This document shows, piece by piece, positions 10,001 to 32,442 of a stretch of DNA of 64,000 bases. The position numbers and the translations under genes were made by a program. The notes under the pieces were generated by a model that saw only the letters and a list, made by a program, of their open reading frames with translations, did not search any database and had not been told where the DNA came from. The first letter of the stretch is position 1. Each line of letters begins with the position of its first letter. The DNA comes from Halosaccharopolyspora lacisalsi (lineage in GTDB: Bacteria; Actinomycetota; Actinomycetes; Mycobacteriales; Pseudonocardiaceae). The DNA lies in assembly GCF_014137975.1 (NCBI RefSeq), contig NZ_JACGWZ010000001.1, forward strand, positions 1,178,001-1,242,000, given 5' to 3'.

Positions 10001-10681
10001 ATCGCTCCCGAGGTCGGGTCCACGGCGAGTGCCTCGTGGGAGTAACGCCCCAGGAACGTCAGCGGCCGAGGATTTTGGTTGCGCTCGGGATGGTAGGGGT
10101 CAACTTCGAACACGAACCCGTGGTCCTTGGTGTCGCCGGCCTCCCCGGTCCGCCGTTCGGTTTCCTCACAGGTCAACCACGTGTTCCACGGTGTGCGGCC
10201 GCCGGCACAGTTGTTGTCGGTACCGCACAAGCTCGCGTATTCGCGGATCCGGTTGCCCTCGGCGTTGACGTGAATGGTCGTGGTCCCGCCCTTGGCGCCC
10301 GGATCGTAGGTAAGTCCTGCCAGGGAGGGGCACCGGGAAGTCGGTGTCCTGGTTCGACCCCACTTCGTGGTTGTTGACCAGGATCGAGCTGGTGTCGGAC
10401 CCGACGAAGCTGGCGGTGCCGTCGGCGTCGGCGGGGGTGGGGTGCCCCGATTCCAGTTTCGTCGCACCCGCTTCGGTCACGACCGTGTAGCGGAAGCCGC
10501 GTGGCAGGGCCAGTCGTCCCGCGGGGTCGTTGACCAGTGGCCCGTATCCACCGGTTGCGCTCGTGCTGGGTCGGCCGCCGGGTGCGGCGGCGGCCGAGCG
10601 GTTGATCGTGTCGAGGTTGCCCAGCAGCATCGCACCCACACTGAGTGCGTCCGAGCGATTGAGAAAGTCGCGTCGGGACAC
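9998..10681 (-). pseudogene. PhoX-type (DUF839) alkaline phosphatase, frameshifted and truncated
   Basis: The minus strand begins MSRRDFLNRSDALSVGAMLLG, a Tat signal typical of PhoX, followed by LPRGFRYTVVTEAG and ILVNNHEVGS. Near 10325 the frame changes (PVPLPG to LAGLTYDPGAKGG) and continues with TTIHVNAEGNRI, CAGGRTPWNTWLTCEE, FVFEVDPYHP, YSHEALAVDPTSGAIYV. It then ends abruptly at about 9998, against the equally truncated convergent gene. PhoX enzymes are calcium- and iron-dependent and usually over 600 residues; only the first third remains. Confidence 0.85.
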
Positions 10682-10753
10682 GCCCGTGGCGAAAAAACCT
10701 TTCTACGTTGAGGGAAAATCTGTTCAGGGCCAGCGCGGGCCCCGCGGGGTGGT

Positions 10754-10785
10754 GGGCGAGCGCGGCTCGTACGCCGCGCTCGCCC
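10754..10785 (-). terminator. terminator hairpin after the second phoD
   Basis: Perfect 13-bp stem GGGCGAGCGCGGC / GCCGCGCTCGCCC with a 6-nt loop, 9 nt beyond the phoD stop codon. There is no T tract. Confidence 0.6.
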
Positions 10786-10793
10786 GCAGTGCG

Positions 10794-12383
10794 TCAGGCC
10801 TGTTGCGCTCCCGGCTTCCCGCTTTCGATCACGAAGGTGGCGCGGTTGCGGATCGGTGCACCGCGGCGGGTGACGTAATCAACGGTGCGGAAGTCGGTGG
10901 TCCACTCGGTGGGGGTGACGACGTTGCGCACGTAGCCACGCTTGTGATTGATGAACTTGATGTGGGGGTTCTCGTCCAGCTGAACCTGGTCGTCCGGATG
11001 GTGGTCCTTGCCGTCGCCGCCGCTGCTGATGGAGGTCCCCACCAGTTCGGTCCCGACCGTGGCCGAGGAGGGGTCGTTGAAGTCGGCCTTGATGTCGCAG
11101 ACGTAGCTCTTGTGCACGTCGCCGGTGAGTACGACCGGGTTGGAGGTTCCGGCCGCGGCGAGGTGGTCGCGCACCTCGTTGCGCTCCACGCGGTAGCCGT
11201 CCCAGGCGTCGTTGCTGAAGTTGGTCTCCGATCCGGCGACGAAGTCGCGCTGGGAGAAGAACACTTGCTGGGCCAGCACGTTCCAGCGGGCCGTCTGTCC
11301 GGCCACCGCCTGGCGCAGCCAGGACTTCTGCTCGTCCCCGAGAATGGTGCGGTCGGGATCGGCATGGTGGGCATCACCCACCTGGTCGCTGCGGTACTGG
11401 CGGGTGTCGAGCAGGTAGAAGTCCATCAGGTCACCGAAGGTGAGGCGGCGGTGGAGCTGCACGTCCGGGCCGTTGGGGCGTTGGGCGCGGCGTAGCGGCA
11501 TGTGCTCGTAGTAGGCCTGGAACGCCCGGGCGCGGCGCTGCAGGAACACCGCGGGGTCGGAGTCGGGCTCGTTGTCCTCCTGGGAAACCTCGTCGGCCCA
11601 GTTGTTTTCCACTTCGTGGTCGTCGAAGACCACCGCCCACGGAAATGCCGCATGCGCGGACTGCAGGTCCGTGTCGCTCTTGTACTGTGCGTGCCGCATC
11701 CGGTAGTCGGCCAGCGACCGGATTTCCCCGTCCGGGACATGCCCGCGCCCCAGCTCGCCCTGGTAGGGGCCTTCGTAGATGTAGTCGCCGAGGAAGGCGA
11801 CCAGGTCGAGGTCCTCCTCGGCCATGTGGGCGTAGGCGTTGTAGTAGCCGGACGGGTAGTTCTGGCAGCTGGCGAAGGCGAAGGCGAAGCGGTCCGTCCG
11901 TGCACCCACAGCCGGTGCGGTCTTCGTACGACCGACGGGACTGAGCTCCCCGTTAGCGCGGAAGCGGTAGAAGTAATCGGCACCCGGCCGCAAACCCGCC
12001 AACTCCACGTGCACCGAGTGCGCCTCTTCCGGGCGGGCGAGTGCGCTGCCGGTTGCGACCACGCGCCGGAAGCGCTCATCCTCGGCGACCTGCCACTCAA
12101 CCGGCACCGGCCGATCCGGCATTCCGCCTCGCCCGTCCTCGGCCAACGGGTCGGGCGCCAGCCGGGTCCACAGCACCACACCGTCGGGCAGCGGATCCCC
12201 CGAGGCCACGCCGAGACTGAACGGCGCCCGCGGACTCTGGCTCCGGATCGGCTCGTTCGCCCACACCGGAACAGACCCCAGCGCCGACGAGGCCCCCAGC
12301 GCGGCGGCACCCGCCGCCCCGCCCAGCAACACGCGGCGGCGGGACACCGGCCCAGGAGACGACGAACTAGCGGAATCAGACAT
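10794..12383 (-). CDS. phoD: PhoD-type alkaline phosphatase, Tat-exported
   Basis: A second PhoD phosphatase, 529 residues, the normal family length. A Tat signal (SRRRVLLGG, residues 14-22) is followed by the PhoD N-terminal beta domain (FSLGVASGDPLPDGVVLWTRL). The metallophosphatase core contains FASCQNYPSGYY, AFLGDYIYEG, VFDDHEVENNW and LTGDVHKSYVCDIKADF. AGGAAGGA lies just before the ATG. It is transcribed toward the broken phoX. Together with the upstream PhoD and GDPD genes it makes a block for using organic phosphate outside the cell. Confidence 0.94.
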   Translation of the reverse strand: MSDSASSSSPGPVSRRRVLLGGAAGAAALGASSALGSVPVWANEPIRSQSPRAPFSLGVASGDPLPDGVVLWTRLAPDPLAEDGRGGMPDRPVPVEWQVAEDERFRRVVATGSALARPEEAHSVHVELAGLRPGADYFYRFRANGELSPVGRTKTAPAVGARTDRFAFAFASCQNYPSGYYNAYAHMAEEDLDLVAFLGDYIYEGPYQGELGRGHVPDGEIRSLADYRMRHAQYKSDTDLQSAHAAFPWAVVFDDHEVENNWADEVSQEDNEPDSDPAVFLQRRARAFQAYYEHMPLRRAQRPNGPDVQLHRRLTFGDLMDFYLLDTRQYRSDQVGDAHHADPDRTILGDEQKSWLRQAVAGQTARWNVLAQQVFFSQRDFVAGSETNFSNDAWDGYRVERNEVRDHLAAAGTSNPVVLTGDVHKSYVCDIKADFNDPSSATVGTELVGTSISSGGDGKDHHPDDQVQLDENPHIKFINHKRGYVRNVVTPTEWTTDFRTVDYVTRRGAPIRNRATFVIESGKPGAQQA

Positions 12384-12535
12384 GTGCGGCAGTCCTTCCT
12401 GCTCGATGGCACTCGACTGCCCCTGCCGACGCGCGGCGGAGCCGAACCATCAACTCATCCGCACCCCGACACCCCAACCACGAAAGAGTGAACATTCAAG
12501 ACTCCTTCTGGAGCCTTCCTGCATGCGCCTCTGGC

Positions 12536-13027
12536 ATCGGCAGACTCGGCGTCGCCGACGAGCGGATTTCCCTCGACCACGGGCTCGCCGGCACCACCCG
12601 CGCCCGTCCCGGACTCGACCAAGCCCTGGCCGCCGTCCGGACCGGTGACACCCTCGTGGCGCCCAGCTCGACCGACTGGCTCGGTCGGTGCCGGATGCTC
12701 GCGCGATCGGCGGCGCTCTGACCGAGCGCGGCATCAAGCTCTCACTCGGCGGTCAGGTCTACGACCACGCCGACCCCATGAGTCGGCACAATGCTTGTCA
12801 CCATCCTGGCCACCTTCGCCGAGTTCGAAGTCGACCTCCTGCGGGCCAGGACGAAGGAAGGCATGGCCATCGCCCGCGCCAAGGGCACGCTCCGCGGCAA
12901 GTGGCCCAAGCTCTCGGCCAAGCAGCAGCGCGAGCTCGTGCGCATGCACGGCACCGGCGAGTACACCATCGCCGACCTCGCCGAGGTCTTCACCGTCTCC
13001 CGCACCACGGTCTACCGCATCATGTAG
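12536..13027 (+). pseudogene. serine resolvase/invertase, broken
   Basis: Pieces of a small serine recombinase in three frames. RLGVADERISLDHGLAGTTRARPGLDQALAA (about 12540-12640) is followed by SVPDARAIGGALTERGIKLSLGG (about 12690-12755). Then MLVTILATFAEFEVDLLRARTKEGMAIARAKG with the C-terminal helix-turn-helix YTIADLAEVFTVSRTTVYRIM ends at 13027. The catalytic N-terminus with the active Ser is missing. Another resolvase tail occurs near 53.3 kb. Confidence 0.8.
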
Positions 13028-13157
13028 CGATACTCGACCTCTGCCGCAACTCGGTGACCAGCGACTTTCCATTACTTTGCGGCTCAGGAGATCTTCAGGA
13101 GTACCGGACCAGATAAGTTCCTCACCAGCAGCACCCCATGGTGCACAGTCGGTGTGC

Positions 13158-13772
13158 TCAGATCGGGTGTGGGAGTCTGATCTGCACGGCCTCGTCGTCG
13201 GTGAGCTCGATACGGTCCAGGCCTGCGCGGTGGGCCGCGCGCAGCACCCCGCTCTGGCCGGGCAGGCAGTGTGCGTGCACGGTGTGTATTCCCGTGGCCG
13301 TGGCCAGGCCCATCAGCGTCGAGATCAACGCGCTGCCGATGCCGCGCTGCTGCCAAGCGTCCTCAACCAGGACGCCGAGCTCGGCGCTAGCCGACTGCGC
13401 CACGGGCATGAGCTGGGCCATGGCCACCACATCCTGATCACGCCAGGCCAGCAGGCAAACTCCCTGTTCTGGGGCGGTCAGCTGCGCCAGCCAGTGCTCC
13501 GATAGATGGGAGCTGGCGGCGTGGTACCGGGTGATGAGAGTCTGTGGCGAGCACCGGTGGTGCGTCACGGCCACCGCATGGCAATCCTGTGGTTGGCCCT
13601 GGGTGAGCACGATGTCCACGCCCTGGTGCGTGCGCACGGTCGCCGGCAGGTCCACGGCCGTCGCATGCGCCCGGGTGAGCGCCGCGCCCAGGACCCGGAC
13701 CTCGGACCGATCGCCCAGCGCGCCCCGCCCTGTCCCATACTCGGGGTTGTTCATCCATAACGTGGGTTCCAT
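13158..13772 (-). CDS. GNAT-family N-acetyltransferase
   Basis: An acetyl-CoA-dependent acetyltransferase of unknown substrate. The C-terminal half shows the GNAT fold: VVAMAQLMPV, then the acetyl-CoA loop LGVLVEDAWQQRGIGSALIS (the Q/R-x-x-G-x-G/A motif), then HAHCLPGQSGVLRAAHRAGL. I start it at ATG 13772 (MEPTLWMNNPEYG); a longer upstream frame has no family-like sequence. The protein is about 204 residues. It stands alone between two pseudogenes. Confidence 0.7.
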   Translation of the reverse strand: MEPTLWMNNPEYGTGRGALGDRSEVRVLGAALTRAHATAVDLPATVRTHQGVDIVLTQGQPQDCHAVAVTHHRCSPQTLITRYHAASSHLSEHWLAQLTAPEQGVCLLAWRDQDVVAMAQLMPVAQSASAELGVLVEDAWQQRGIGSALISTLMGLATATGIHTVHAHCLPGQSGVLRAAHRAGLDRIELTDDEAVQIRLPHPI

Positions 13773-14088
13773 GTCCCCAGGTTTGCCCTGTGCGTAACAC
13801 AGGCAGAATCCGCAGGTTACGAAGACGCGAAGCCTGCGGTGCATCGATCTTGCTTAGGGGCGAGGACATCGCCAGCGGCACATCGAGTTGCACGGCCAGG
13901 CGGTTCACCGCCGCTCGAGGCGCGTCGGACACGAAAACCCGGCCACGACAGGAGGCAATCCCCCTGTTCTGCCGCATGCACGAACGCTACCGCCACAGCA
14001 CCACGTACGAGGGGTAGGGCAGCTGCCAACCCGGTTTGATGCTGGTCGGCTGCGTACGCGTGGTCGCCAGGTGTTGCGGAATTGCTGA

Positions 14089-14557
14089 CTCCATGGTGGT
14101 TCGCGGCGCCGATGCAGGAAGCGGCCCGGTTCGTCTTTGACGACCCCGACGTAGTCACCGAACGCATCACCGCCAGCCGCCCACCTGCACCTGTCGGTGG
14201 CCCGAGCCATGCACCGCGTGTTCACCGAGGCAGGAGCACGCTGCCGGCTCCCGTCCGCGGCGTTCTACCTCCCCGACCTGGGCCGTGGCGGAACGCGTTC
14301 GCCGCGCGGTGCGGTGACGGGTACTGACGCCGCTCGCTGCTTGCTGGATCAGCACGGGATCGGGGCGCTTCCCGGCGAAGTCTTCGGCGACGATCCCTCG
14401 GCCCTGCGATTCCGCGTGGCGGACGAGCCTGCTCTACGAGGAGAGTGAGCAACGGCTGACTGCGCTGCATAGCCAGGACCCGAAGAACCTGCCGTGGACC
14501 GCCCAAGCACTGGACACGGTCGGCGAAGTGCTCCATGTGCTGAAACAGACAGGTTGA
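14089..14557 (+). pseudogene. class I/II aminotransferase, C-terminal remnant
   Basis: The C-terminal third of a PLP-dependent aminotransferase can be read across frames. MQEAARFVFDDPDVVTERI runs to about 14170, then HLSVARAMHRVFTEAGARC, then GIGALPGEVFGDDPSALRFRV to about 14420. Finally SLLYEESEQRLTALHSQD leads to the TGA at 14555. At least three frameshifts occur and the PLP-binding N-terminal part is absent. The match is to the general family layout; no specific enzyme can be named. Confidence 0.65.
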
Positions 14558-16700: not shown

Positions 16701-16879
16701 TCGCTGTTGAACGGTGAACCTGGCTTGGTTCGGCACGTTGAGTGAGAACTTGGCCGGAGGAGCGGGCGCAGCCGAGGTGCCGAACCTGCCACCGAGGAGT
16801 CAGCCCCCGAGCACGAGTCGTTTGCGCTGGGTGGGGGTGTGGGCGTAGTGGTCGGGTCCGGCCTCCGACACCACAGCGA

Positions 16880-16891
16880 GGGAAATTTCCC
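16880..16891. repeat. 12-bp perfect palindrome upstream of the abrB-type gene
   Basis: GGGAAATTTCCC stands about 110 nt before the likely start of the AbrB-type protein. It could be an operator, but only its position suggests this. Confidence 0.3.
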
Positions 16892-17003
16892 CAGCGTACT
16901 GAGTGTATTTCGGATCTCCCGCAGCGTCCAGAGGGGCGCTGCGGTCGAGGTGTGTTCGCACCGTTCTGGTGCGGGTTCAGGCACGGTTACCGGGGTGGTG
17001 CCG

Positions 17004-17471
17004 GTGTCTGATGAGATCGTGTCCGCGGTGGTGCCGTCCGGGGCCGGTGTGGCCGAGGCGGGGCGTCGTGCGGCTGGGGTGGTGCGGTCGTTGCCGGTGG
17101 CGGAGGTTCCTGTACCCACGAGTGAGCCGACGATGGTCTACGGCATGGGTCGGGTGGATGCTTCCGGCCGGATCAGTCAGCGCGCGCTCGTGCGGGCGCT
17201 GGGCTGGCAACCTGGCCAGCGGGTGGCCGTTGAGCTGGTCGCTGGGTCGGTGTTGGTGCGTCCGGATGCGGCCGGGACGGTGGTGCTGGGTGGCAAGCCG
17301 TATGTGGTGTTGCCGGCGGCGGTGCGGCTGCGCTGCGGGGTGCGGGCCGGAGACGCCGTGCTGGTGGCCGCGCGGCTGGATCGCGGTGTGTTGGTGGTGC
17401 ACCCGTTGAGCGTGGTCGACGGGTGGCTGGCCGAGCACCACGCCGGACTGCTCGGGGGTGAGGTCTGGTGA
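17004..17471 (+). CDS. AbrB/MazE/SpoVT-like DNA-binding protein
   Basis: A likely transition-state-type regulator of about 155 residues. From GTG 17004 it reads MSDEIVSAVVPSGAG. The swapped-hairpin segment is VYGMGRVDASGRISQRALVRALGWQPGQRVAVELVAGSVLVRP. A second similar half (VVLPAAVRLRCGVRAGDAVLVAARLDRGVLVVHPLSVVDGWL) suggests two AbrB folds in tandem. Its stop overlaps the GTG of the following tyrosine recombinase, so it probably controlled that enzyme. The start is uncertain: the frame is open further upstream and ATG 17131 is also possible. Confidence 0.7.
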   Translation: MSDEIVSAVVPSGAGVAEAGRRAAGVVRSLPVAEVPVPTSEPTMVYGMGRVDASGRISQRALVRALGWQPGQRVAVELVAGSVLVRPDAAGTVVLGGKPYVVLPAAVRLRCGVRAGDAVLVAARLDRGVLVVHPLSVVDGWLAEHHAGLLGGEVW

Positions 17472-18492
17472 GTACTCCTGAGCCGAGTGAGCTGGAGGCG
17501 GCGCGGCTGTTGCTGGCTCGGATGGGTCTGTCCCCGGAGGATCTGGTGGCCACGCCGGGGGAGAAGCCACCAGCGCCGACCTTCGCTGACTACGTCCCGC
17601 AGGTGGCCGAGGCAGTGTCTGAGGGCACGCGGCGGGTGTATCGTTCCTACTGGAACAAGATCACCACGGTGTGGGGTGCGCGTCGGTTGGATGAGCCGAC
17701 GGCCTCGGAGATCAAGCAGTTGACCGAGCAGGTCCGCACCCAGGTCGTCCAACGCCGCAACGCCCGGGGTGATCGTAGTGCGGCCGAGCACTGCATTGCC
17801 GCCCTGCGGTGCGTCTACAACCACGCGGTGGCCGACGGACTCATCAGCGAGGCTGATAATCCGGCCCGCCGGGTACCCAAACCGCGCCGGCTGCCGTCGA
17901 CGCGGCGCGGCCTGCCGGACGCACGCCTGGCCGAGATCAACCGCGTGGCCGCTGCCACGGGCAACGACCCCGCCTTGGACACGCTGTTGCTGCGGCTGCA
18001 CACCGAAACCGCGTGTCGCCGCGGCGGCGCCCTGGCGCTCACGGCCCGGGATCTGGATCCGGATCAGTGTCTGGTCCTGCTGCGGGAGAAAGGCGACACC
18101 GTCCGGTGACACCCGGTTTCACCGATGTTGATGCGGCACCTGCAGGCCCACGCCGACCAGCGCGGCGCCGCCGCGTCCGGTGGGCCGTTGCTGCGGTATC
18201 GCAGTGGTGAGCCGATCACCCGGCGGCGCTACGACCCCCTCTGGCACCGGCTCGGTCAGCACTTGCCGTGGGTGGCCACCCAGCAGATCAGCACCCACTG
18301 GCTGCGCCACACCACCCTGACCTGGGTCGAGCGCCACTGCGGCTATGCCGTGGCCCGCGCCTACGCCGGACACACCCACACCACCGGCGGGGTGACGGCG
18401 GCACCACCAGCACCTACATCCGCGCCACCCTCCCCGAAATCGCCGCAGCCCTCGACACCCTCACCGGAGAAAACCACCCACTGGCCACATAG
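17468..18492 (+). pseudogene. tyrosine recombinase/integrase, two lesions
   Basis: A site-specific recombinase with SAM-like N-terminal domain (residues about 35-120) and the catalytic Arg in TETACRRGGALALT. An in-frame TGA at 18107-18109 sits where a Trp codon would fit (DTVR*HPVSP). The same frame then continues with the THWLRHTTLTW His-x-x-Arg motif. A frameshift near 18395 separates GHTHTTGG from the tyrosine segment TTSTYIRATLPEIAAAL. It is coupled by overlap to the AbrB-type gene. Both lesions remove the active-site Tyr, so the enzyme is dead. Confidence 0.85.
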
Positions 18493-29778: not shown

Positions 29779-30051
29779 CTAAAACGGGTGGTGACAGTAT
29801 TGGCAGTCCCAGTTGATCGACTCCTGTCTCAATGGGAGATCAACGATAACACCACACGAACACCGCCAAGTAGGCGAATATTGGTGACTATTCAACTGTC
29901 CCCGGATGGAGTAGCGTGCCTGCCCGATAGGGCGCTGGGAAGCACTTTCACTCGGCGACGCTTCACGTCGCCACCGAATACCGCCACATCTCATGTCCGA
30001 TTTTTCCACTTGAGAACAAGTGATATCATTTTCTCCTGATCGCCGCAACAA
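29779..30051 (-). CDS. possible small zinc-ribbon protein
   Basis: The C-terminal end of this frame, RYSIRGQLNSHQYSPTWRCS then CGVIVDLPLRQESINWDCQYCHHPF, has a C-x-C(G)...W-x-C-x-x-C arrangement like a zinc ribbon. The N-terminal part is not protein-like; a start near 29994 would give about 71 residues. No good ribosome binding site is visible, so this may be a remnant. Confidence 0.3.
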   Translation of the reverse strand: MLRRSGENDITCSQVEKSDMRCGGIRWRREASPSESASQRPIGQARYSIRGQLNSHQYSPTWRCSCGVIVDLPLRQESINWDCQYCHHPF

Positions 30052-30125
30052 GTCACATGATTACCAATCTGGGCAAACTCCCAGAATTGGATAGCTGAAT
30101 AGCTATGAATATTTTTCATATCATG
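29990..30125. other. AT-rich island
   Basis: A conspicuously AT-rich patch (for example TATCATTTTCTCC, GAATATTTTTCATATC) in otherwise very GC-rich DNA. It borders the truncated end of the LanB remnant. It may be foreign sequence or the scar of the event that removed the rest of that gene. Confidence 0.6.
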
Positions 30126-30988
30126 CTCTTGGGTCGTGCCCAGGGCCAGCAAGGCCGGCGTACTCATCTCGCGCGTGTTCACTCGGTGCCTCGTTGTGGG
30201 CATCGATGTCGCGGTGGACCTGGTCGAGCTGTCGTATCAGCGGCGCGACCGGAAGAGCTTCGACGTTGGTCTCTCGGAGCCGGTCGAGCACATGCCCCGA
30301 GGGGTCGGTGACCGTGCTCGGCGCGCGCAGGGAGGTGACCAGGAACCCGTGCTGTACCAGGGAAGTCACGGGTCACCGGCCTGCGGAAAAGCATGGCCCA
30401 GCTTGTCGGTCAGCACGCGGAACTGGACCGGTGACCGGGTTTCGCGGCGGACGGTGCGCACCGCGCTGCTCTCGCGGACGCTGGTCGCATTGTGGTCGGG
30501 GATTTCCAACCGCCCACTGCGGGATTCGGCCATGTCGGTGAAGACCACATCAAGCCGGGCCAGCAGCTCCGGGCAGCCTTCGAGCTGCTGAATCACCCCG
30601 TGGAGCCAGCCCATGTCAGCACGCACGACGGGAACGTGCTGCTCTGCCCGCTGAACGCTGCTCACCGGACCGACGGTGACCGGGGCGACTCCGGCGAACG
30701 TGCCGAACGGCGTGGACCGCCCGGCAGCGCGCAGCGCACCACCGCCAGGGTCACGCGTTGAACGTCCCGGGCCGGGGAAGGATCACCGGTCAGGATCGCT
30801 TCGACCCGCCCGGCGAGGACCGGGCTCGCGTGCCGAATGGGCATCGCCAACCCCGGCAGGGACCAGGCCTCGCTCAGCCAAGTGCGGCAGTCCTGGGCGT
30901 CAGTGGGATCCGGCCACCAACTGGGCTCGACGGTCTCCGCTGTTGCTCGCAGCAGCCCGGTGCCGTGGTGCTGGTAGTCCACGGGCAT
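30121..30988 (-). pseudogene. class I lanthipeptide dehydratase (LanB), N-terminal part, broken
   Basis: The gene that should follow the lanthipeptide precursor. From ATG 30988, with GGAAGG upstream, it reads MPVDYQHHGTGLLRATAETV, WPDPTDAQDCRTWLSEAWSL and MPIRHASPVLAGRVEAILTG, the opening of the LanB glutamylation domain. Near 30735 the frame shifts and continues ALRAAGRSTPFGTFAGVAPV (the hallmark TPFG-x-F-x-G), then VRADMGWLHGVIQQLEGCPE and VFTDMAESRSGRLEIPD to 30366. A third frame gives LVQHGFLVTSLRAPSTVTDP and LIRQLDQVHRDIDAHNEAP, then stops. Full LanB proteins approach 1000 residues; about 280 remain, so it cannot dehydrate a precursor. Confidence 0.82.
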
Positions 30989-31012
30989 TGCGCACACCTT
31001 CCAGGGGTAGGG

Positions 31013-31044
31013 CCCGGGGGCCGGGCCTTGGCCCGGCCCCCGGG
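31013..31044 (-). terminator. long GC hairpin between precursor and lanB
   Basis: Perfect 15-bp stem CCCGGGGGCCGGGCC / GGCCCGGCCCCCGGG with a 2-nt centre, 6 nt after the precursor stop. Such partial terminators often set a high precursor-to-enzyme ratio in lanthipeptide operons. Confidence 0.6.
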
Positions 31045-31049
31045 GGTGA

Positions 31050-31202
31050 TCAGTGCGACGAGTTGCAGGCCGAGATCTCACACGTGTGCCCGCAGCCGTC
31101 GTCCGTCTGACGCGGTGGTCCCGCGTTCCGGATCGGGTCCGTCGTGACCCGCACATCCAGGTCGAAGACGTCCACCGGCTCCTTCGAGACGGCAGTGGTC
31201 AT
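31050..31202 (-). CDS. FxLD-type class I lanthipeptide precursor
   Basis: A 50-residue peptide too short to stand out among neighbouring frames. GGAGGTGA lies 5 bases from its ATG at 31202. The leader begins MTTAVSKEPVDVFDLDVRVT and contains F13-D-L15-D16, the FxLD leader signature. The core is TDDGCGHTCEISACNSSH, with Cys37, Cys41 and Cys46 plus Thr40, Ser44, Ser48 and Ser49 as possible dehydration sites. FxLD precursors are modified by a LanB-type dehydratase and a cyclase to form (methyl)lanthionine rings, often with a dedicated methyltransferase. Here the adjacent lanB is broken and no cyclase or methyltransferase is in the window, so the peptide is orphaned or modified in trans. Confidence 0.82.
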   Translation of the reverse strand: MTTAVSKEPVDVFDLDVRVTTDPIRNAGPPRQTDDGCGHTCEISACNSSH

Positions 31203-31408
31203 GAGTCACCTCCTTTCGAGACGCGGAGTCGCGACGGGGCCACAGGTGCTGTGGTCCCGTACTGCGGAGCCGGGACAGCTCCACAGAGTCTTCTTGGCCT
31301 GGACTTCATCCGGACTTTTTGGTTGGAAGCCCGCCCCGGCCATGCCGTTGGGACAGGGGCGGGCGTGGTCCGGTGTCGGTCGGGGGACAGGCGGCACCGG
31401 ACCGAGTT

Positions 31409-31555
31409 CTACGTGCGTCGGCGGTGCGCTCCTCCGCGTCCGCGCAACGGCACACCTGACTCGGTGAGCACGCGGTGCACGAAGCCGTAGGAGCGGCCGG
31501 TGGACTCGGCCAGACGGCGAATGCTGGCCCCGTCGGCGTATCGGAGTGCCAAGTC
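31409..31555 (-). pseudogene. small helix-turn-helix protein, C-terminal remnant
   Basis: Minus-strand fragment CAADLALRYADGASIRRLAE then STGRSYGFVHRVLTESGVPLRGRGGAHRRRT. It matches the widespread small actinobacterial helix-turn-helix proteins ('GASIRxLAESTGRSYGFVHRxLTESGVxLRGRGG'). The N-terminus is missing; at about 31560 it meets a DUF5753 remnant in opposite orientation, so a rearrangement joined two broken regulator genes. Confidence 0.68.
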
Positions 31556-31570
31556 GGCGGCGCATCGGTC

Positions 31571-31876
31571 ATGCGCGAGCAGCTGGAACTTCTTCGGGAA
31601 CTGGCCGATCTCCAACACGTCACGCTGCAGGTCCTGCCGTTCAGCACGGGCACTCACGCCTCGATGGGGACCTCGTTCACGATCCTGCGGTTGCACAGCA
31701 ACGGCAAGCGCACCGTGTACGTGGAAGACCTCACCAGCGCGGACCACCTGGGTCGACCGCATCACCTGGACACGTATACCCGGGTCTACGACCGACTGCG
31801 CATGGCTGCGCTCGGCTTGAACGAGTCGCAGTCCGTACTGACGCAGGTCATAGACGAACTCGGCACTGGAAGGTAA
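31571..31876 (+). pseudogene. XRE-type regulator, DUF5753 domain remnant
   Basis: Plus-strand fragment MREQLELLRELADLQHVTLQ, VLPFSTGTHASMGTSFTILR, TVYVEDLTSADHLG, YTRVYDRLRMAALGLNESQS. This is the C-terminal half of the DUF5753 domain of actinomycete XRE regulators. The DNA-binding N-terminus is gone. The TAA at 31874 overlaps the position where the following DUF397 gene should start, the usual arrangement of such pairs. Confidence 0.78.
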
Positions 31877-32085
31877 GGACGTCAACCCCCGATCTCACCG
31901 GAGCTCGGTGGCGCGAGCCCACCCGTAGTAACGGCAGCGGTGCGTGCGTTGAAGTGGGGATCGTGCCTTCCGCTACTGGCGTGCGTGACACCAAGCTCGG
32001 CGAGGTCAGCCCCGTACTGGCGTTCACACGCACTCAGTGGAGCAGCTTCCTCCAACGCGTCCAGGACGGATGCCTCGACGTCTGA
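31876..32085 (+). pseudogene. DUF397 protein lacking its start codon
   Basis: The frame reads TSTPDLTGARWREPTRSNGS, GACVEVGIVPSATGVRDTK and VLAFTRTQWSSFLQRVQDGC, a complete DUF397 domain. DUF397 proteins act as small partners of DUF5753 regulators. The expected start overlaps the upstream stop as TAATG, but the sequence is TAAGG (ATG to AGG at 31876-31878). No other start in frame gives a full protein. Confidence 0.65.
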
Positions 32086-32231
32086 TCCGATCATGACTAT
32101 CGAGGCTTCGTCCGAGTGCAGCTTCGGACTGAGTCTCGCTCCAGATCACCTGAACAGGTGCTGCAGAGTAGCCGTGAGCTTGCGGAGGCTTCCTCCTCGT
32201 CGGAGCCGCACTCGAGGTGAGGGAGCACGGT

Positions 32232-32442
32232 ATGCCCGTTCCAGCAGACTTCGTCCAGGCAACCTGGCGTAGGTCAAGCCGAAGCGGCAACACCGGTAAC
32301 TGCGTCGAGGTCGCCGAGCTCCCGGCCGGTGTCCGTGTCGTTCGCGACACAAGGACCGCGACGGTGGTGTCCTCGCGGTGGAGGGCACCGCGTGGTCGGC
32401 CTTCACCGGCGTGATCAAGGACGGTCGTCTCGACGGCTGATC
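32232..32442 (+). pseudogene. DUF397 protein, frameshifted
   Basis: A second DUF397 gene from ATG 32232: MPVPADFVQATWRRSSRSGN then TGNCVEVAELPAGVRVVRDT. A small indel near 32346 moves the rest (KDRDGGVLAVEGTAWSAFTGVIKDGRLDG) to another frame, ending at TGA 32440. The domain is otherwise full length. A terminator follows at 32458. Confidence 0.75.

Follow-up and report, generated by a model that had tools for sequence, protein, structure and literature searches.

Whether a lanthipeptide precursor gene lying beside a broken dehydratase gene still has enzymes to serve it, or is what remains of a dead cluster, is the question raised by a locus of Halosaccharopolyspora lacisalsi, a relative of actinomycetes that produce antibiotics. 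It was analysed within a 64,000-nt window (assembly GCF_014137975.1, contig NZ_JACGWZ010000001.1, positions 1,178,001-1,242,000), the whole stretch of DNA to which the coordinates of this locus refer. According to the available text of PMC7268733, no class I precursors are more abundant in Actinobacteria than those that have a conserved Asp and come with a PIMT-type methyltransferase, and most of these carry a TxDGC motif, as stated in the accessible part of PMC10787088. The preliminary description had named the locus an FxLD precursor left with a dead LanB in a decayed cluster, possibly a relic, without giving its strand. Profile matches, the breaks in the dehydratase gene, and the absence of partner enzymes bear out this naming, and the precursor gene (lanA) and the lanB remnant can now be placed, in all their parts, on the minus strand. 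The locus very probably represents a class I lanthipeptide cluster of the FxLD, methyltransferase-associated kind that was inactivated recently.

The precursor gene and the hairpin behind it

The lanA gene (31050-31202, minus strand) encodes 50 residues and matches the FxLD lanthipeptide family profile TIGR04363 over its whole length at 44.2 bits, above the cut-off of 30 bits, which places it within that precursor family; it is the sole TIGR04363 match in the host genome. Its score against the FDLD class I profile NF038155 (18.8 bits) falls slightly below the cut-off of 20. The peptide carries an FDLD leader motif, a TDDGC core motif, and three core Cys residues, and a Shine-Dalgarno sequence read as AGGAGGT (31208-31214, minus strand) places AGGAGG a few bases 5' of the ATG. 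The earlier reading of this 50-residue frame, with its strong ribosome binding site and FDLD leader, as an FxLD precursor thus holds.

Counted from the FxLD motif, lanA agrees with eight relatives at 20-23 of 38 residues, the precursors of Haloechinothrix halophila YIM 93223 (L074/L097) and Saccharothrix algeriensis DSM 44581 (L071/L098) being 54-61% identical to it where aligned. Comparison of precursor conservation, as proposed at the outset, found that 14 of the 15 columns invariant in the eight nearest relatives are kept; in the remaining one, a core Cys has become Arg. This Cys stands two positions ahead of the T in T[DE]DGC in all eight nearest relatives, and lanA accordingly has three core Cys against four in those relatives. 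It is also missing from all four of the more distant precursors compared (L099-L102) and is therefore not a defining residue of the whole precursor family, so that its replacement in lanA may be suggestive of decay and is not proof of it.

Between the lanA stop and lanB, an inverted-repeat search located a perfect 15-bp inverted repeat (31013-31044, minus strand). By inspection, a strong hairpin occupies the equivalent site in 8/8 relatives, and the shuffle z-score is -2.96 in the window and -2.03 to -4.61 in the seven of these eight relatives that were scored. The element is possibly an attenuator or an mRNA stabiliser. It does not resemble a consensus intrinsic terminator. A scan for consensus promoters at the locus found none, which says little for an actinomycete.

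The earlier statement that the precursor looks intact therefore stands for the reading frame, the Shine-Dalgarno sequence, and the downstream hairpin; it does not stand for the core, where the Cys shared by the nearest relatives is Arg. The three unbroken features speak against reading the locus as a relic, and they might suggest that lanA is under selection for another role, for example as an unmodified peptide. The LanB remnant, however, contains two frameshifts in 834 bp, and at this density a 153-bp (50-codon) frame would stay unbroken by chance with P ~0.69, so that the survival of lanA requires no selection. With a conserved core Cys also lost, selection for such a role is extremely improbable.

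The lanB remnant and its breaks

Downstream of the hairpin, positions 30157-30988 (minus strand) contain the initial third of LanB, a class I dehydratase; two frameshifts interrupt it before it is cut off. A tblastn comparison with the intact 1018-aa LanB at L070 resolved it into three collinear pieces in three frames at 60-62% identity: the N-terminal piece 1 (30725-30988; L070 LanB residues 35-125, 60%), piece 2, frameshifted (30369-30722; residues 129-245, 62%), and piece 3, frameshifted again (30157-30360; residues 252-319, 62%), all on the minus strand. The Lant_dehydr_N domain (PF04738, cut-off 28 bits) is present in these broken pieces only, covering profile positions 5-252 of 649, with 102.4 bits in piece 2, 43.9 bits in piece 3, and 15.5 bits in piece 1, which falls short of the cut-off. 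The LanB N-terminus with two frame changes and a cut after about 280 residues, recognised earlier from the sequence, is thereby recovered, and the LanB similarity is confirmed by profile search.

The breaks could also be artefacts of sequencing or assembly, the cluster itself being functional. By-eye comparison with the relative L072 gives net losses of about 7 and about 10 bases at the two frame changes, which excludes one-base sequencing slips as their cause. Homology to LanB stops at 30157, the remainder of the gene is gone, and the sequence beyond has a lower G+C content (0.41 over 100 bp starting at 30000), is single-copy in the host genome, and is internal to a contig of 1.6 Mb; none of the 16 contigs was found to carry the C-terminal two thirds of LanB or the partner genes. 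What favours an error is that the LanB pieces evolve as intact genes do. On 261 shared codons, similarity to L071 is 57.9% for the remnant versus 54.8% for L070, similarity to L074 is 52.5% versus 51.3%, and the remnant shows the usual excess of third-position changes. Such unaccelerated evolution argues against a relic, yet it would also follow if the event were very recent or the assembly faulty, and an origin of the breaks in assembly or sequencing is very unlikely. Since the LanB pieces resemble other LanBs as much as intact L070 does, the decay appears to be recent, or at least to have left little trace.

Intact and partial clusters in relatives

In the host's bacterial family, TIGR04363 matches occur in 116 of 390 genomes and matches to the LanB piece in 144 of 390. 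Among the matches listed, the eight nearest LanB loci (own locus excluded; 50-61% identity) all have a precursor directly upstream, and because the same pair recurs in the same order in these relatives, its presence in the window is far beyond chance. LanB relatives were also found in 32 of 72,556 plasmid records, all below 60% identity. Two loci were scanned for LanC and the FxLD methyltransferase. The S. algeriensis locus L071 encodes a 1010-aa LanB with both dehydratase domains, a 384-aa LanC, and a 435-aa FxLD methyltransferase, and L070 (genome G049) encodes LanB, a methyltransferase scoring 430 bits, and a LanC-like frame 60% identical to that of L071. The search for homologous intact clusters thus succeeded, with a precursor and full LanB in relatives and the two further enzymes at L070 and L071. 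The clusters of H. halophila, S. algeriensis, and G049 share the lanA-lanB hairpin with the window and have LanB regions about 48-69% identical to its pieces; unlike the window, all three retain a full-length LanB.

Among known systems, a close likeness is to the lanthimiditides, class I peptides with a PIMT-like methyltransferase (TIGR04363/TIGR04364), such as OlvA of Streptomyces olivaceus. They share with the window the FxLD leader, the order of precursor then LanB, and, as far as the available text of PMC13001092 and PMC10787088 goes, the TxDGC core motif; in the window, by contrast, LanB is truncated and frameshifted, and LanC and the methyltransferase are absent.

Partial clusters occur elsewhere as well. 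At locus L100 of Actinopolyspora xinjiangensis (16867-18382), 91 residues from the end of LanC survive together with an FxLD methyltransferase that shares 74% identity with the L070 enzyme, and no LanB match adjoins them, whereas L029 of genome G005 keeps a precursor closely followed by a frame-broken LanB stretch that starts near residue 600. Both resemble the window as partial FxLD clusters and differ from it in the parts retained, L100 having the LanC end and methyltransferase without an adjacent LanB and L029 the precursor with a C-terminal part of LanB. A separate FxLD cluster lies near the L100 relic (precursor at 10001, LanB 10288-13272, LanC 13476-14513). At least nine LanB open frames below 500 aa are present outside the host genome among the matches listed, some of which may be contig ends. 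A literature search for lanthipeptide pseudogenes, judged by title or abstract start, found no paper on such relics.

The immediate surroundings of the locus are also damaged, which, like the partial clusters in relatives, favours reading it as a relic. The other-strand neighbours are likewise broken: a DUF5753 regulator retains only its C-terminal half (profile positions 80-177 of 178), one DUF397 copy sits at the end of a different long frame, and a second copy matches only the first part of the profile. These genes span 31475-32414. The end of a small helix-turn-helix protein (HTH_58, 82.5 bits; 31409-31570, minus strand) overlaps the broken DUF5753 frame, and orthologues of a neighbouring metallo-hydrolase reach identities of up to 59%. 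Farther away, a serine resolvase fragment with Resolvase and HTH_7 domains (12791-13027) is a sign of mobile-element remains in that part of the window.

Search for partner enzymes in the host genome

The precursor had been proposed as a possible substrate for enzymes encoded elsewhere, and a search for a second FxLD system had been suggested. In the host assembly (16 contigs, 97.28% complete), profile searches for LanB, LanC, and the FxLD methyltransferase gave no match above cut-off outside the lanB remnant. The elimination domain Lant_dehydr_C (PF14028) has no match in the genome, the identical search being positive in 3/3 relatives; LANC_like (PF05147) has no match, in a search that was able to detect the domain, as it did in 1 of 14 control genomes; and PF04738 has no match beyond the lanB remnant. 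Nothing in the genome exceeds the 320-bit cut-off of the FxLD methyltransferase profile TIGR04364, the best score being 121.8 bits, and all 14 control genomes likewise match below it. A complete FxLD system, taken as a LanC-like protein (PF05147) together with a TIGR04364 match above 320 bits, is therefore absent from the assembly.

Three methyltransferase candidates were considered and rejected: L034, a 234-aa open frame that scores below the cut-off, as do the matches of all 14 control genomes, and is probably a housekeeping PIMT; L035, a 61-position stretch whose frame overlaps an IS3 transposase ORF; and L036, a C-terminal stretch containing one stop. Judged from their sequences, none would be expected to work as an FxLD methyltransferase. 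Three weaker TIGR04364 matches (L037-L039) score 19-30 bits. Two matches to PIMT-type RiPP methyltransferases, both weak and partial, occur at L084 (6636-6809) and L085 (6838-7032) of the host genome; one overlaps an ORF for an IS3 transposase, and the other contains a stop.

That a LanB, a LanC, and a methyltransferase encoded elsewhere mature the peptide in trans would fit the intact lanA frame, its strong Shine-Dalgarno sequence, and the hairpin, and 2.7% of the genome is possibly missing. A partner gene could in principle sit in that missing sequence, but the chance is small because the genome is 97.28% complete, and with PF14028, PF05147, a further PF04738 domain, and any above-cut-off TIGR04364 match all lacking, such maturation is highly improbable. 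According to the accessible portion of PMC13001092, the methyltransferase OlvSA works only on a peptide that has already been dehydrated and cyclised, so that in the absence of LanB and LanC a precursor would presumably go unmodified by such a methyltransferase too. It is decidedly unlikely that lanA, its translation signal, and the hairpin were kept after enzyme loss, with the peptide used unmodified, matured by enzymes that the assembly lacks, or altered by some unrelated enzyme.

Evolutionary interpretation

For the preferred reading, a recently inactivated FxLD cluster, the analysis shows what the precursor is, that LanB is truncated and frameshifted, and that the assembly lacks the partner domains; from these we infer the former chemistry, the order of events, and the lack of function. 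In the working cluster, LanB would have dehydrated core Ser/Thr residues, LanC would have used Cys to close thioether rings, and the Asp of TxDGC would have been turned into aspartimide or isoaspartate by the FxLD (PIMT-like) methyltransferase. A deletion would then have taken everything past about LanB residue 319, LanC and the methyltransferase with it, and the frame of the remaining lanB would have been shifted by two further, small deletions. The lanA frame, ribosome binding site, and downstream hairpin would still be there, with nothing found in the genome to mature the peptide.

The locus is a real, ordinary relic of a known natural-product kind. Genome mining that relies on precursors only would call a dead cluster here, which is a caution for annotators, and the loss of lanB, lanC, and the methyltransferase would become a datable event if further strains were sequenced. 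The one thing that the locus demonstrates is that FxLD lanthipeptide clusters decay in the host's bacterial family.
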